The translations under genes and the position numbers were made by a program. A stretch of DNA of 64,000 bases, from contig JASJBX010000055.1 in NCBI GenBank assembly GCA_030066295.1, forward strand, positions 1-64,000, written 5' to 3'. The DNA comes from Crocosphaera sp. (GTDB taxonomy: Bacteria > Cyanobacteriota > Cyanobacteriia > Cyanobacteriales > Microcystaceae). The first letter of the stretch is position 1; each line of letters opens with the position of its first letter. Below are positions 21,252 to 30,935 of the stretch, in pieces. The notes under the pieces are model-generated. The model did no database searches. It was not told the origin of the DNA and saw nothing but the letters and a program-made list of their open reading frames with translations.

Positions 21252-21488
21252 ATGAAAAAACAAAAGATTGCCATAACTCTAGACGAAAGTTTAATAGGCT
21301 TTTTAGATAAGATGGCTAAAGGAAATCGTAGTCAATATCTCAATCATCTTCTTACACAGCATCGAAATAAAGTTACAGAAGAGCAGTTAATTGCCTCTTT
21401 ATCCGAAGACAGCCAAGATCCTCAATATCAGCAAGAAATACAGGAGTGGGATGGAGTGGTAGGAGATGGCATTAATGAAGAAGAATAA
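21252..21488 (+). CDS. RHH (CopG/MazE-like) antitoxin-type protein, no adjacent cognate toxin
   Basis: KIAITLDESLIGFLDKMAKGNRSQYLNHLLTQH ribbon-helix-helix pattern, acidic C-terminus. Confidence 0.75.
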   Translation: MKKQKIAITLDESLIGFLDKMAKGNRSQYLNHLLTQHRNKVTEEQLIASLSEDSQDPQYQQEIQEWDGVVGDGINEEE

Positions 21489-21499
21489 ATTAACCTATA

Positions 21500-22189
21500 C
21501 TACTCAATATCTTCTAATTGCGTTGTTAATAAATTTATTTTTAGTTTTTGTAACCAAGGTAACTTATAATTAATTTGTCCAGCATCTTTAATTTTATTAA
21601 TTAGTGAATCGTATGTTCTAATTTTCAGATTAGGATTATTTCGATTATGTCTCCGTTTTAAATTTCTTTTTTGCTCATTATTTTTAAACTCTTTTGCTCT
21701 TCCAATCAGTAATATTCCTTTAGGTTCTGTAAATGAATCGATGCCATACACATCCCTAATCGCTCCTTGATTGATAGTACAGTAATCAATATATCTAGTA
21801 AGTTGATTAACTCCTCTATTCGCTGCATTACTATATCTAAAATCTCCATTTTTATCCTCAAGCCAAATCTTTTCATTTGCTCCTTTCAATTCCAATACCC
21901 ACCAAGTTACGCCGTCTGAATTATCTCCTGCAAATAAATAATCTGGTTTTAAGCCCTTATTCTGTCCAACACGAGGTTTAATCAATTGTTGAGGCAGAAT
22001 CCAAGCACCATGATGTCCTGTCCAAAAAAAAACAGAAATAAATGCTAATATCGAAAGGTTTTCTTGCAAAAAATTATTAATTTTTGTCTCATCCGAATTT
22101 TTAATTATTAGTGATAAAAACTCACCTACTTGCTGTGATGTTATGTCATATGGATCAACTCTAAATTCATCAGGCGGATAAATGCTCAT
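21500..22189 (-). CDS. Shedu-like (SduA/DUF4263) PD-(D/E)XK nuclease
   Basis: KPDYLFAGDNSDGVTWWVLELKGANEKI (D...ELK), then ANRGVNQLTRYIDYC and PKGILLIGRAKEF...IRTYDSLINKI, consistent with the Shedu nuclease core. Confidence 0.75.
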   Translation of the reverse strand: MSIYPPDEFRVDPYDITSQQVGEFLSLIIKNSDETKINNFLQENLSILAFISVFFWTGHHGAWILPQQLIKPRVGQNKGLKPDYLFAGDNSDGVTWWVLELKGANEKIWLEDKNGDFRYSNAANRGVNQLTRYIDYCTINQGAIRDVYGIDSFTEPKGILLIGRAKEFKNNEQKRNLKRRHNRNNPNLKIRTYDSLINKIKDAGQINYKLPWLQKLKINLLTTQLEDIE

Positions 22190-22446: not shown

Positions 22447-23517
22447 ATGTCTGAAAATATTGAAGGTATTTTTGATTCTGCACTGCAAAATCAACGTTCA
22501 GTCCCAGAAACTTTCTTTTTAGATTTGTCTGCCGACAAAACCATCGCTCAAAATCTTCATCAATCAGATGAAGCGGTGAAGCGTCGGATACGACAATTCA
22601 TGGAGTCTACTAATAGTCCAACTCAGTTTTTATTTAATTTTCAGACCTACGGAAATGATTATGATGAAAAAGTAGCATCAGATTTAGTCAATGGAAGAAT
22701 TGCTGCAATTGACTCAACTGATGTTCTACCAATTACTGATTTAATGAATACGTCTTTTTATGCAGTTGGAGTTGGGTGTATAACCAGTCGCATTCGTCAT
22801 AGTCCAGAGTTTGTCTTTACTACTACTCATACTAGCTATACAAAACCTAATGAAATAGCAGATAATGATGAAAATCTGTTTAGTTTGTGTGATGAATTAG
22901 ATAATATTCGTCAAACTAAAGGTTCTTGGGCAACTACATTTCGAGAATATCAAGAACGAGAAGTTGCTATTGCTTGTGAATCACAAACTGTTCTGTTAGA
23001 CGGCCCCATATTTACCCAAAACTTGATTACACAACATTCAGGTCGAGAACTTTATTCTAGGATGATGGAAACAGGTAAAAGATTCATAGGTGTTATCAAA
23101 GACTTGGGTAGTTCATGGGCAATTAGTAGATGGACAGCGATGAGCTTAGAGCGAGAAGAGGGGTTCGTCCTGTGTCCTATTCAAGAGCAATATCAGCGAA
23201 GATTTGGAGACATTAGAAGTATTCACAATTGGATTGGAGGATTATCTGGACAATATGTCAGGGTAGTTTATCGTCCTGCTGAAAAAGCTTTCGCTTTTGA
23301 GTGTGCTTTAGAGGATTTACCATACGCAGTTAGTCTATTGCGACAAGATGCAAGTCCAACCATAAATCATGAAATTCCTTTATTGTTAGAAACTGTTGAT
23401 TCTCATCTTAGAGGAAGTAATAATTCTCAAGCTATACAGCATTCTTTTTATACAGAAATTCAACGTAATAACTACCGCATGGGCGTAGATATTACCAATG
23501 AACGTAACTATCGTTAA
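22447..23517 (+). CDS. NurA-like nuclease domain protein
   Basis: AAIDSTDVLP and VLLDGPIFTQ acidic motifs, LYSRMMETGKRFIGVIKD, C-terminal INHEIPLLLETVDSHLR; ends 15 nt before a HerA-like ATPase ORF. Confidence 0.75.
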   Translation: MSENIEGIFDSALQNQRSVPETFFLDLSADKTIAQNLHQSDEAVKRRIRQFMESTNSPTQFLFNFQTYGNDYDEKVASDLVNGRIAAIDSTDVLPITDLMNTSFYAVGVGCITSRIRHSPEFVFTTTHTSYTKPNEIADNDENLFSLCDELDNIRQTKGSWATTFREYQEREVAIACESQTVLLDGPIFTQNLITQHSGRELYSRMMETGKRFIGVIKDLGSSWAISRWTAMSLEREEGFVLCPIQEQYQRRFGDIRSIHNWIGGLSGQYVRVVYRPAEKAFAFECALEDLPYAVSLLRQDASPTINHEIPLLLETVDSHLRGSNNSQAIQHSFYTEIQRNNYRMGVDITNERNYR

Positions 23518-23532
23518 TAAGGTTAACCACTA

Positions 23533-25323
23533 ATGCCATTAATTCAAATTCCTGATACTGTCAACTCTGATTTAAGTTTAATTTGTGGCTATACTTTTAA
23601 TGAACCAGAATTATCAGCTAATGACTTTGTTATTGTCGAAGACTCTGCCAGTTCTAGAAAATATTTTGGTCAGATTGTTGCGCCCCAAGCTAATTTAAAC
23701 CGTTCCGCATTAGGCCCACAAGATAATGCCACCATTAACGCTTTTGAGCAACTTGAACAGAAAAATTATTCTCGTGAGGTTGTAGTTCGAGAGGTTTATT
23801 TTTATCAAATTAGTCTCGTTAAAGATATCACTAAAAAACCACCTAGTAGTGTTCGTCGTCGTCCTCAAATTGGTTCGATTGCTCGCCTTGCGACTGAATC
23901 AGAGATTGTCCTATATTTAAACTTACCTCCTGTTGATGAAAATTATCGAATCGGACAAATTATTGATAGTGATATCGGTATTTATATCAATCAAAGAACA
24001 CTTTTTTATCAAAGTTTAATTGCAGGAGCAACAGGAAGTGGAAAAACAAATTCTTGTGCTAATTATATCTGTGCGGCTTTAGAAATGGGTTTTTCAGTTA
24101 TTATTTATGACCATAAACCTGACTATCAACATATTGATCAACCAAATAATGATGTACAGAAAATTTTAAATGATAATGGTCAAGTAGAAAAAAATACAAA
24201 CTGGGTGAGAGCAATAGACGCTGATTTTTACTATTTAGGAGAGGACTCTACAGCTTTTCAAGGGACTGAAATTGCTATTCCGGCTTCTGAATTTGACCCG
24301 TCCGTACTCGCAGCAGTCATGTATTATCCCCCCAATGAAAACAATCAACGTGAAGAATTTGAGACGTTATTAGAGGAGTTTGATGACGAGCAGCAAGCAG
24401 CACATAATGGTGATGGTTCTGCAATTTGGACATTAAGAGACTTTTTTCAATGGGTTACTAGCAACCAAGATCCTTGGCAACCTCCTAACCATGCACGAGA
24501 AAGACTCGGAGGAAGACAAGCTCAAACCTATAGAACGATGGTATCCAAGATGCTTCGTAGAAATCGTCGTCCAGCTTGGGTTGATGGGGGATTACCAATT
24601 AGTCCAAGAGGAAATACTAATGGAAACAGAGGCAGAAGACAGAGTCCGAGTGCTGCTGTATTTAGTCAAAATCAAGCTCCTCAACAACCACAGTGGTTTG
24701 ACCCTGCTGAGTTATTACAACCAGGGAAAGCTTTAGTGATCCGCGTAGGACAAGCTGGTGGAGGTCGTGACTATGGACTGTTTTTAAATTATATGCTGAA
24801 GCGAGTCTATGAACTCAAGGATTCACGTCAAATTAAGTTTCCCATATTACACCATATTGATGAAGCGCAAGACTTGTTTAATGGTAGTAAACAGTTTGCT
24901 GCTGCTATGGGAAATGTGTTAAGTGAAGGTATTCGTAAAGGACGAAGTAAACAAATTGCTTTTACTATCGCCGTTCAGAGTGCTGCTCAAATACCTGATG
25001 ATATTTTGAATAACTTAAACAGCCGTATTATTCACCGCCACAACCGCGCTAGTGAAGCACAAAGAGCATTAGAGAAAGCCTCAGATGCTCAAATTTCCAT
25101 GACTAAAAATTTTGGCCCAGGTGAGGCCTTGGTTGATCTATTTGGTGCTTCCGCCGTTATCAATGCCAGAATGCGCTTATCCCCCTTCCAGCTTACAACT
25201 GAAGAGTTATTACAAGAGTCCGAACAAAAACAAAACGGAGGAAGTTCTCAAACGAGGGAAATTGTGCCAGAACCAGAAGAACAGTTACAATCATTGGAAC
25301 ATGAAGATGATTTCCAATTTTAA
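23533..25323 (+). CDS. HerA-like ATPase (FtsK/HerA superfamily)
   Basis: Walker A GATGSGKTNSC, Walker B ILHHIDEAQDLF, EGIRKGRSKQIAFTIAVQSAAQIPDDILNNLNSRIIHRH (HerA pattern). Confidence 0.88.
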   Translation: MPLIQIPDTVNSDLSLICGYTFNEPELSANDFVIVEDSASSRKYFGQIVAPQANLNRSALGPQDNATINAFEQLEQKNYSREVVVREVYFYQISLVKDITKKPPSSVRRRPQIGSIARLATESEIVLYLNLPPVDENYRIGQIIDSDIGIYINQRTLFYQSLIAGATGSGKTNSCANYICAALEMGFSVIIYDHKPDYQHIDQPNNDVQKILNDNGQVEKNTNWVRAIDADFYYLGEDSTAFQGTEIAIPASEFDPSVLAAVMYYPPNENNQREEFETLLEEFDDEQQAAHNGDGSAIWTLRDFFQWVTSNQDPWQPPNHARERLGGRQAQTYRTMVSKMLRRNRRPAWVDGGLPISPRGNTNGNRGRRQSPSAAVFSQNQAPQQPQWFDPAELLQPGKALVIRVGQAGGGRDYGLFLNYMLKRVYELKDSRQIKFPILHHIDEAQDLFNGSKQFAAAMGNVLSEGIRKGRSKQIAFTIAVQSAAQIPDDILNNLNSRIIHRHNRASEAQRALEKASDAQISMTKNFGPGEALVDLFGASAVINARMRLSPFQLTTEELLQESEQKQNGGSSQTREIVPEPEEQLQSLEHEDDFQF

Positions 25324-25456
25324 TTACAGGGCAAGTCTTAAGTCTTTTTGACAGATAAATGTCGTCTGTGTTTAATACTTGATAAATTACCAAAAATTAT
25401 TGGTCGCATCTTTTTTCGTCCGAATTTCATTGTTAGTAATCAAGAAAAATCATTTA

Positions 25457-26725
25457 ATGAAAGAATCTACCTCGAAACAGGAATTCGCTATTATTCCCAC
25501 AGTAGTAAGTGGTAGTCAAGAAACTGCCATTATTCAATTTTTGAAAACAGCCAATCAATTACTTGAACAGAGTCAAACATTAGCAGAAACTCAAGAGGTT
25601 TGGCAAACAGTCAATGCACTAGAAGCTTTGTCTAAAAAATTTCGATTAAATAAAGAGGTTCAACTTGATGCTACTGAGTTAAGGATTCGCATTGAACGGA
25701 GATTAGGAGAATTTTTGACTCAAAACCATGATAATAATGAAGTAAGAAATAGCCAAGATAATCAAAAATCAGCTATATTTAATGATAATGGAAACAGTTA
25801 CCAAATATTATCATCAAACCATAATTTTAGTAAACATGAGTTATCGAAATTTCAGCAACTAGCTAAAACTCCACAGAAAGTGTTTGAAGCTATTGTTACT
25901 GATTTAAGAATTGAAGCAACTATTAATCGGCAAACAGCTTTATCTACTCTTGGAATTTTACGCGCTATTCGGAATGAGCAAAAGAAAGATAATAAACCAT
26001 TATTTAGTCCTATCATAAAACCATCTGATAATTGGAATTTTAGTTCTATTCGATATAAAAAGATTGATAATAATTCAGGAAAAAATAGAGGCTATATTCC
26101 AGGTGAAATTTATGCTAATTGTTTCTGGTACTATGTTAAGCCTAATAACTTAGTAGTAGCACCTATGGCCGGATCTGGTCAGATTTGGCGCATATATGAA
26201 GTTCGTCAAGAATGGATGGGTCAACACATTTATGATTTTGAATTAAAAATGTTTGATTTAACTCCACGTGGAAAATATCAGCATTTAATTAAGCAACATG
26301 ATCTGTTAAAAAATTTTCCAATTCCTAATCCAGATTATATCATTATGGACATTCCTTACTATGGAATGGCTAATCAACAGTATTCAGATAAATCTGAGGA
26401 TTTGGCTAACATGAGTTTAGATGAATGGAAAGAATCTCTAGCTATTATTGCCAAAAATTGCGCTAATGTACAAAAAGCTCAAAAACTTTGTACTGTTATT
26501 TCTCCAAATTATCGAGACGTTGTAACAGGTCAGATTTTTATGGTGACAGATATGATTCGTGCGTTATGGGAATCTTTCGGTTATCAATTATATGATAAAG
26601 CTTATTCAAGTCGTCGAATTCAGCAGAATCAAACACCATCAATGGCTAGAATGAATAATAAAGCTAAAGCTAATCGTATTATGCTTACTGATATTACTGA
26701 GATTCTAACATTTCAGAAACTTTAA
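25457..26725 (+). CDS. Divergent DNA methyltransferase-like protein
   Basis: GYIPGEIYANCFWYYVKPNNLVVAPMAGSGQ (motif I-like), DLTPRGKYQHLIKQHDLLKNFP, DYIIMDIPYYGMANQQYS (motif IV-like). Start moved to MKESTSKQEF. Confidence 0.65.
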   Translation: MKESTSKQEFAIIPTVVSGSQETAIIQFLKTANQLLEQSQTLAETQEVWQTVNALEALSKKFRLNKEVQLDATELRIRIERRLGEFLTQNHDNNEVRNSQDNQKSAIFNDNGNSYQILSSNHNFSKHELSKFQQLAKTPQKVFEAIVTDLRIEATINRQTALSTLGILRAIRNEQKKDNKPLFSPIIKPSDNWNFSSIRYKKIDNNSGKNRGYIPGEIYANCFWYYVKPNNLVVAPMAGSGQIWRIYEVRQEWMGQHIYDFELKMFDLTPRGKYQHLIKQHDLLKNFPIPNPDYIIMDIPYYGMANQQYSDKSEDLANMSLDEWKESLAIIAKNCANVQKAQKLCTVISPNYRDVVTGQIFMVTDMIRALWESFGYQLYDKAYSSRRIQQNQTPSMARMNNKAKANRIMLTDITEILTFQKL

Positions 26726-26853: not shown

Positions 26854-27496
26854 AGTATTAAGCACATTTACCCCATAAGCGATCGCTCTTGTGATCGTTA
26901 TCTTTGATTTGACAGTTGACTCAATATTTGAATAAGCTTTAAGGGAAATATTTTTCTACTTCTAAAACGCTTTTGCCAAAACAACTATTGACAATCATTG
27001 TAACGCGATCGCTGTTTAGCTTAGGCAGAGAATTGCTTATTTTTGATTCTAAATATCCTAAATCACCATAAACAAAAAATCTAATTTTATTTTACCTGAT
27101 AAGCGATCTCACTTTTCCCCCATATATAAGAAAAACTTTTATTTTTTTGAAGTTTGCTTTTAAAATTACTAATTTACATTCCGTTACTTGTAACAAAACT
27201 TAATATTTTATTGAGAATAATTATTATTTGTAAACGATTTCATGGGATTTTTGCGCTATACTCTAATTTTCATAATGGACTTTTTGTATTTAATTTTTGC
27301 TCAAAATAGCCTTTAACCCTGATTACTAGGTCAAAAAAATATTATCACCTATCCCCAATCAATCAAAAATCCCCCCAAAAAAGCCCCAAAATTTGAGCGT
27401 TTTTGTATATTTTTATTACGCGCTCAAAACTAAATTTGACAAAATAAATAAAAAGTGATAGTAAGGTTAGGCGAGCTTTAGAGACATGAAAGAAGG

Positions 27497-29936: not shown

Positions 29937-30353
29937 TCATCTAGGTACGTTGGGATATAAGCGATCGATTTCTTGCTGTTGTAATAGACGTTGATCGATT
30001 ACCGCATCCTGTTGGTTTAGAGTTTCAATCTGTTGGAGATACTGACCACAGTTGCGATCAATGGCTGGAGGAGGGTTGGTAATGGTTCGCTCTAAACAAG
30101 CTCTTTCGGTGCGTTCCCGATGAAAATGTTGCAAAATCTTTTCCGGGGTCTGAAAATAAAGTTGACGGTTGTGACGCATATTTTCACGATGGGTTGTGGC
30201 ACCACAGTTCACTGCACCGGGAATACAGTTTTGAGAAGGGACGGAAAGATTGGGACCGATGTTCTGCAGTTGGGCGTTTGCTTTGACTGGGACAAATAGA
30301 CTCAGTCCGACGGTAACCAAAGATAGTAAAACAAGATTAGCATTAAGTTTCAT
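29937..30353 (-). CDS. Small secreted protein, unknown function
   Basis: Signal peptide MKLNANLVLLSLVTVGLSLFVPVKANAQ; the ORF track fuses it in frame to upstream TnpB sequence. Confidence 0.7.
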   Translation of the reverse strand: MKLNANLVLLSLVTVGLSLFVPVKANAQLQNIGPNLSVPSQNCIPGAVNCGATTHRENMRHNRQLYFQTPEKILQHFHRERTERACLERTITNPPPAIDRNCGQYLQQIETLNQQDAVIDQRLLQQQEIDRLYPNVPR

Positions 30354-30935
30354 AGAATTAGCTCCTGAGGTTGAACACACCCCTAAGTTCTCTATAACAA
30401 TTACTTTAACATCATGAAGTTTAGCAAACTCAATGATTTCTCTCGAAACTTTACGAGAAATCTCTAAATTAATATTACTCGATTTTCGATAAAGTCCTTG
30501 ACAAAAACCTTTAACAAACTTTTTGCCCGTCTTTTTATGAGTCTGTTTTGATTTTTTAGTAATCATCATTTTCCTTTTATTACGACGGTCTATGTCTCTA
30601 GCCGGATTGATAAATTTCCGAGCCTTTACAGTACCGTTCCGTCCAACAATTGAACAAGTTGCAGCATTATTAATGCCTAAATCTACGGAACAAACATAAT
30701 CTGAATCCTCCTTTTTAAGGGTTTTAATTTTCACTGGCATTGAAAGCTGACAAGTCTTAGAATTAACCACTAAAGCTGGAGACTTTAGTTGATTACCTAT
30801 GACCTTATGCCGATTAAGTCCATGACTTTTAACTGGGATTTCTTCTAACCAAACCCAATCAAAACCATTCCACACTTTGAGAGAAACATTTTGATAATCA
30901 TCATTATATTTATAATGTTGTGCTGCCGCACGTTA
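30354..30935 (-). pseudogene. IS200/IS605-type TnpB remnant, truncated at both ends
   Basis: SVDLGINNAATCSIV (RuvC-I), NPARDIDRRNKRKMM, GFCQGLYRKSSNINLEISRKVSREII, VIVIENLG (RuvC-II); the frame closes upstream and no C-terminal RuvC-III/zinc finger remains. Confidence 0.85.

Follow-up and report, generated by a model that had tools for sequence, protein, structure and literature searches.

A mobile NurA-HerA-methyltransferase cassette of cyanobacteria, Poribacteria and phages as a possible weapon in conflicts between genetic elements

Why should genes for a NurA-family nuclease, a HerA-family ATPase and a methyltransferase stand one behind the other at a variable site of a cyanobacterial chromosome, and what might their products do together? 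The question is raised by a stretch of Crocosphaera sp. DNA, positions 1-64,000 of contig JASJBX010000055.1 (64,000 nucleotides, hereafter the window), in which an earlier note had recognised a tandem three-gene cassette of same-strand open reading frames with 15 nucleotides between the first two. The coordinates and the spacing agree with that description. The frames, all on the plus strand (Table 1), encode proteins of 356, 596 and 448 amino acids, the last being counted from the TTG at 25379, from which the frame is open to 26725. Orthologues place the start of the third gene at the ATG at 25457, giving a protein of 422 amino acids and, consequently, a gap of about 130 nucleotides between the HerA and methyltransferase genes. 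As argued below, the trio is a co-inherited and mobile unit, and its likely use is as a weapon, wielded by mobile DNA or against it.

A sample of 386 cyanobacterial genomes was searched separately with a NurA profile and a methyltransferase profile. Both searches matched the same five genomes and no others, and the three genes are adjacent in each of the five. A scan of 84,980 species yielded 14 loci, all cyanobacterial or poribacterial, and the trio is adjacent in all 11 readable cyanobacterial loci, in one of which HerA is truncated; two loci were left uncounted, L030 on a short contig with NurA only partly readable, and G049 with HerA cut at the contig end. The order NurA-HerA-methyltransferase is found in the window, in G195, in Nostoc (L031) and in Microcoleus (L032), the order HerA-methyltransferase-NurA in Roseofilum L020, L021, L022, L025 and L027 and in three Poribacteria, and the order methyltransferase-HerA-NurA in G346. 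As membership stays constant while the order shuffles, a functional linkage is favoured. The trees of the three proteins agree with one another, showing the same two main clades and the window in the same small clade, and in them the phage copies branch outside the cyanobacterial clade A. Purifying selection within clade A is strong on each of the three genes, with ratios of nonsynonymous to synonymous substitution rates (dN/dS) of 0.07-0.21. NurA, HerA and the methyltransferase form a co-inherited unit, so that the tandem cassette of the earlier note stands. A chance adjacency of the three genes is ruled out by the identical genome sets and the parallel trees. The co-occurrence of the third gene with the pair, which that note had made decisive, holds in every readable cyanobacterial locus but not throughout the Poribacteria, where the methyltransferase is missing from at least three of seven loci.

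The first protein is, on the strength of its model, a diverged NurA with the RNase H-like NurA fold. Alone, it has no match in Pfam, NCBIfam or PHROGs, and its PADLOC match is at chance level; PF09376 is matched by 11 of its 20 homologues (best 1.5e-4) and not by the window protein itself. The AlphaFold model was built from the family alignment (predicted local distance difference test score, pLDDT, 73.5). Its seven best matches in the PDB are all NurA entries (E 2.7e-6 to 4.8e-5; template modelling scores about 0.3-0.47), among them Sulfolobus NurA 2ygk, NurA 3taz and the Thermococcus HerA-NurA complex 9x1n. Positions that never vary across the family are, among others, D89, E170, D185, H308-E309 and D318, and the conserved acidic ones among them make a nuclease function the prediction for this protein, whose dN/dS is 0.07-0.18 in clade A pairs. 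The second protein is a HerA, scoring above the Pfam cut-offs for HerA_C (44.7 bits) and DUF87 (41.7 bits), with Walker A (GATGSGKT) and Walker B (HIDEAQD) intact, with 4d2i (HerA) and 9x1l (HerA-NurA) as relatives in the PDB, and with a dN/dS of 0.07-0.17 in clade A.

The third protein is an S-adenosylmethionine (SAM)-dependent methyltransferase and belongs probably to the amino-DNA-methylating type. The window copy has no Pfam match; it has motif I as PMAGSG, a variant motif IV, DIPY, and a large helical N-terminal domain. A two-member profile of the family, made without L014, matches the methyltransferase of G346 at 3e-7, which in turn belongs to PF01555 at 2e-14, and among solved folds the DNA methylase TTHA0409 comes nearest to the protein's model, which is of low confidence (pLDDT 60.6). 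Motif IV reads DVPY in the phage contig L058, mostly DPPY or DPSY in clade B, and DPPY in G346. This gene is the least constrained of the trio (dN/dS 0.13-0.21 in clade A), its N-terminal domain being more variable than the catalytic one. The assignments of the earlier note (NurA-like, HerA with intact Walker motifs, methyltransferase-fold-like) are thus borne out for all three proteins.

The cassette is not part of the core genome. When the window is compared by blastn with the congeners G001, G002 and G007, the two flanks of the trio lie 0.8-1.6 kb apart there, with other genes between them; one flank consists of the hisS-side genes ending at window 21,498 or 22,280, the other spans window 27,110-27,457. 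The insertion site beside hisS is a variable spot which in congeners holds MazEF, SduA and other small genes, and the Shedu-like nuclease and toxin-antitoxin debris noticed earlier in the neighbourhood proved to be a divergent SduA and a MazE without MazF (Table 1). The patchy distribution, the lack of the trio at congener sites and the presence elsewhere in the same genome of a stand-alone, core-type NurA of PF09376 all confirm the suspicion of the earlier note that the trio is accessory. No direct or inverted repeats of at least 10 nucleotides bound the insertion, and no tRNA att site was found at 15-32 kb of the window. In Nostoc sp. CHAB 5844 (L031:2-6894) the trio lies directly downstream of tniQ-tniB-tniA, the Tn7-like tns genes; CRISPR-associated Tn7-like elements keep their cargo at this position. 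The NurA of G049 is 83-84% identical across family boundaries. A tblastn search of a plasmid collection with HerA and NurA members gave no match, a search of plasmids with the G346-type methyltransferase returned only ordinary methylases (on Vibrio, Shewanella, Photobacterium and Thermus plasmids), and no HerA or NurA was annotated near the three plasmid methyltransferase regions that were read. The cassette is accessory and mobile between cyanobacteria, Poribacteria and phages.

Table 1. Genes and other features at the cassette locus, in window coordinates
Feature	Position	Strand	Basis
NurA-family nuclease	22447..23517	+	PF09376 in homologues, PDB fold matches, invariant residues, dN/dS
HerA-family hexameric ATPase/translocase	23533..25323	+	Pfam HerA_C and DUF87, Walker A/B, PDB relatives, dN/dS
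SAM-dependent methyltransferase	25457..26725	+	orthologue starts, profile match, fold match, dN/dS
Shedu SduA nuclease, divergent neighbour	21500..22189	-	SduA_C 8e-14; also at this hotspot in congeners G005 and G007, where the trio is absent
MazE antitoxin without MazF	21252..21488	+	family scan; congener L054 keeps an intact MazEF at the same place
Trio-bearing segment	22281..27109		missing at the corresponding site of congeners G001, G002 and G007 (blastn)

Promoter and terminator scans of the locus gave a signal near the level of shuffled sequence. Two other features of this region deserve mention. In congener G005 (L049:5536-6537) the SduA frame continues into BrnT-like toxin sequence, giving a fused open reading frame of 333 amino acids, and at 29937-30875 the window encodes a short TnpB/Cas12f-like protein of 312 amino acids with weak transposase matches only, probably a TnpB remnant.

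The phage side of this traffic is represented by four viral contigs in which HerA-NurA adjoins a DNA methyltransferase belonging to one of at least three groups. Two of them have the gene order of the window and a methyltransferase of the same family as the window's. In the first (L058, IMGVR_UViG_3300007274_000026) tail fibre and endolysin genes are followed by NurA-HerA-methyltransferase and then by a DnaB-type helicase; in the second (L040/L060, IMGVR_UViG_3300043571_000443) the order is a head-morphogenesis protein, a DnaB-type helicase, a CysH-like gene, the trio, and csf2- and csf3-like genes. In a third (L039/L055) the pair is accompanied by a D12 (Dam-type) methyltransferase, with a Sak4 annealing protein nearby on L055, and in the fourth (L038/L056) by a PF01555 methyltransferase bearing a ParB-like region. 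That several kinds of DNA methyltransferase stand beside one nuclease-motor pair suggests that methylation itself is the wanted function. Searches of viral contigs for close relatives of the window NurA alone found none, a query of the phage collection with the L039 NurA likewise found none, and HerA profiles gave no confirmed viral contig, though phage copies exist, which marks the limit of the pattern step. On the second contig (L040:3149-12274) the trio is placed between the CysH-like gene and the csf2/csf3-like genes, which are of type IV CRISPR and are another inter-element weapon.

What, then, might the trio do? By analogy with the solved complexes, a hexameric HerA ring would thread double-stranded DNA into a NurA dimer, which would destroy it, while the linked methyltransferase would either modify the resident DNA or read its modification state, so that resident DNA is spared. 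The trio would act like an unorthodox restriction-modification system, carried against rivals by phages and the Tn7-like element and kept by hosts as a defence. Published work offers precedents for parts of this scheme. In anti-phage systems HerA acts together with nucleases (PMC11291478). For archaeal HerA-NurA, which degrades double-stranded DNA, a role in antiviral defence instead of resection has been proposed; the Thermococcus pair cleaves in a way considered ill-suited to end resection, and CRISPR arrays with a nurA-csm6-herA cluster next to them have been described (PMC12977600). A portable cassette for conflict between elements, with DNA destruction by NurA-HerA and a methyltransferase that either marks self or controls the nuclease, is our preferred explanation, held at somewhat less than even confidence. 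A narrower proposal is more doubtful: that the trio represents a class resembling restriction-modification, with HerA-powered NurA as the effector and a replaceable methyltransferase (of its own family, D12 or PF01555) as the marker of self, forming a weapon common to phages, a Tn7-like element and hosts. The defence module suggested earlier was a good guess, but phages carry the same trio, and host defence is not its only setting.

Several observations weigh against this explanation. NurA-HerA has been described chiefly as a nuclease that needs DNA ends and shows no sequence specificity, and how methylation would spare DNA is the weak step; a trigger could come from the entry ends of phage DNA, from breaks made by a neighbouring enzyme such as Shedu, or from an endonuclease activity of NurA (PMC4641729). 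Most host loci sit among ordinary genes and not in dense defence islands. Motif IV of clade A is DIPY instead of DPPY. In Brasilonema sp. UFV-L1 (L023) HerA has lost its core (about residues 21-546), with the NurA and methyltransferase frames still open; the remnant, at L023:4589-4702, consists of the first 20 or so and the last 22 or so residues, left by a large internal deletion. NurA is present in seven of 85 poribacterial genomes and adjoined by the methyltransferase in only three of them, whereas G489, G444 and G446 have HerA-NurA pairs without it; with at least three of the seven loci in this state, the methyltransferase is not always needed for self-protection. In ICETh1 of Thermus, discussed below, loss of the methylase has minor effects only, and NurA and TdtA serve DNA donation (PMC7767461).

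Some loci have further genes of possible relevance. In the poribacterial locus G499, cut by a contig end, a different adenine methylase lies about 6 kb away, beside a UvrD/AddA-type helicase. At the poribacterial L071:1-8632 HerA-NurA is found near a CcrM-like adenine methylase, a UvrD/AddA-Cas4-like helicase-nuclease and a TIR-like small protein, surroundings that look like a defence island. Immediately upstream of the trio, two poribacterial genomes (L024:848-2817 and L026:235-2141) carry a gene for an AlkB-type 2-oxoglutarate-Fe(II) oxygenase and an additional methyltransferase-like gene. In Microcoleus CAN_BIN18 (L032:9967-11919) an SLFN/AlbA_2 gene begins about 9 nucleotides after the methyltransferase gene and is a possible fourth component.

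The explanation that survives best beside the preferred one, though we consider it unlikely, is a phage-type DNA-processing module domesticated by bacteria, in which HerA-NurA would degrade host or competitor DNA or process replication ends and the methyltransferase would protect phage DNA, the cyanobacterial copies being remnants with no role in defence. The two phage contigs with the window's gene order branch outside the cyanobacterial clade A, and replication or recombination genes accompany viral copies (the DnaB-type helicases on L058 and L040, Sak4 on L055), all of which would suit such an origin. The host copies, however, are under strong purifying selection and have no phage neighbours, and their spread as an exact three-gene set through many hosts, Poribacteria among them, is what one would expect if hosts benefit from keeping it; moreover, the viral contigs found are only four.

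Distinctly less probable is a DNA-donation machine, in which HerA would pump DNA out, NurA would trim it and the methylase would be auxiliary. Its model is the tdtA operon of ICETh1 in Thermus thermophilus HB27 (TTC1877-1880), a co-transcribed operon on a mobile element that encodes a type IIG enzyme, a NurA-like protein of 377 amino acids, TdtA of about 64 kDa and a PF01555 methylase of 410 amino acids (PMC5365140), and whose NurA and TdtA are required for DNA donation by transjugation (PMC5365140, PMC7767461). This operon is a published parallel to the trio, and the remark in the earlier note that it knew of no characterised system with such a set is to be corrected accordingly. Compared by published description only, the two share the order NurA-HerA-N4/N6 methylase, similar protein sizes and a mobile setting. 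ICETh1 differs in having a type IIG restriction-modification gene, a XerC integrase and tRNA att sites, and in its demonstrated function, DNA donation. In the window there is no type IIG restriction-modification gene by the trio, the upstream neighbour being the divergent SduA, and no integrase among the scanned neighbours; neither was an integrase seen in the partial family scans and open reading frame lists of the other cellular loci. Furthermore, donation has no obvious use for phage carriers.

It is also rather improbable that the methyltransferase is a catalytically altered DNA or SAM sensor which licenses HerA-NurA to kill or block on meeting a foreign or SAM-depleted state. Such a role would agree with the motif IV variants, DIPY or DVPY in clade A and DPSY in part of clade B, with the large helical N-terminal domain and with the dispensability of the methyltransferase in some Poribacteria. 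Against it, conservation extends to motif I and to most of the remaining key columns, DPPY is present in G346 and in many copies of clade B, and N-I-P-Y or N-L-P-Y serves as the motif of functional N6-adenine rRNA methyltransferases. An end-resection pair for DNA repair with an incidental methyltransferase is very improbable, although end resection is the role for which NurA-HerA of archaea and Deinococcus has been studied most (PMC9960219, PMC4641729), since the trio occurs in only five of 386 cyanobacterial genomes, the methyltransferase is present in every readable cyanobacterial locus and a core-type NurA stands alone elsewhere in the genome, the patchiness and this separate NurA ruling out a core-repair reading.

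The trio, taken as a weapon between elements, can also be set beside other HerA-containing systems. Archaeal and Deinococcus HerA-NurA (PF01935/PF05872 with PF09376) are of the same two families, adjacent and with the NurA fold (PMC12977600, PMC9960219), but are linked to repair, whereas the window pair is diverged, accessory and linked to a methyltransferase, with a NurA below Pfam detection. HerA-Sir2 and HerA-DUF4297 likewise combine a HerA ATPase and an effector enzyme in an accessory cassette (PMC11291478, PMC12198126), while the effector of the trio would be NurA, of RNase H-like fold, together with the methyltransferase; identity with either was rejected, as Pfam, NCBIfam and PADLOC scans found no Sir2 or DUF4297 partner among the neighbours. 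HerA/FtsK capture systems and DndFGH also direct HerA/FtsK motors and nucleases at invaders, with a different nuclease architecture and no mention of NurA (PMC10853773). As for MADS, the window HerA resembles mad8 of PADLOC (59 bits); identity was rejected, since the scanned neighbours include no other mad genes and the window cassette has three genes. MADS includes a methyltransferase, by its name. No account of the cassette in cyanobacteria, Poribacteria or phages came up in the openly searchable literature, an earlier mention in subscription papers being possible.

HerA-NurA is usually viewed as an archaeal repair pair, a role that is now disputed. Its mobile bacterial and phage forms, found repeatedly with a DNA methyltransferase, offer a direct test of the idea of a DNA destroyer that tells self from non-self, and nature supplies variants for such a test in the poribacterial pairs without a methyltransferase and in the Brasilonema locus without the HerA core. 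A conflict module of this kind would link the DNA-donation operon of Thermus, genes of phages and the defence of their hosts.

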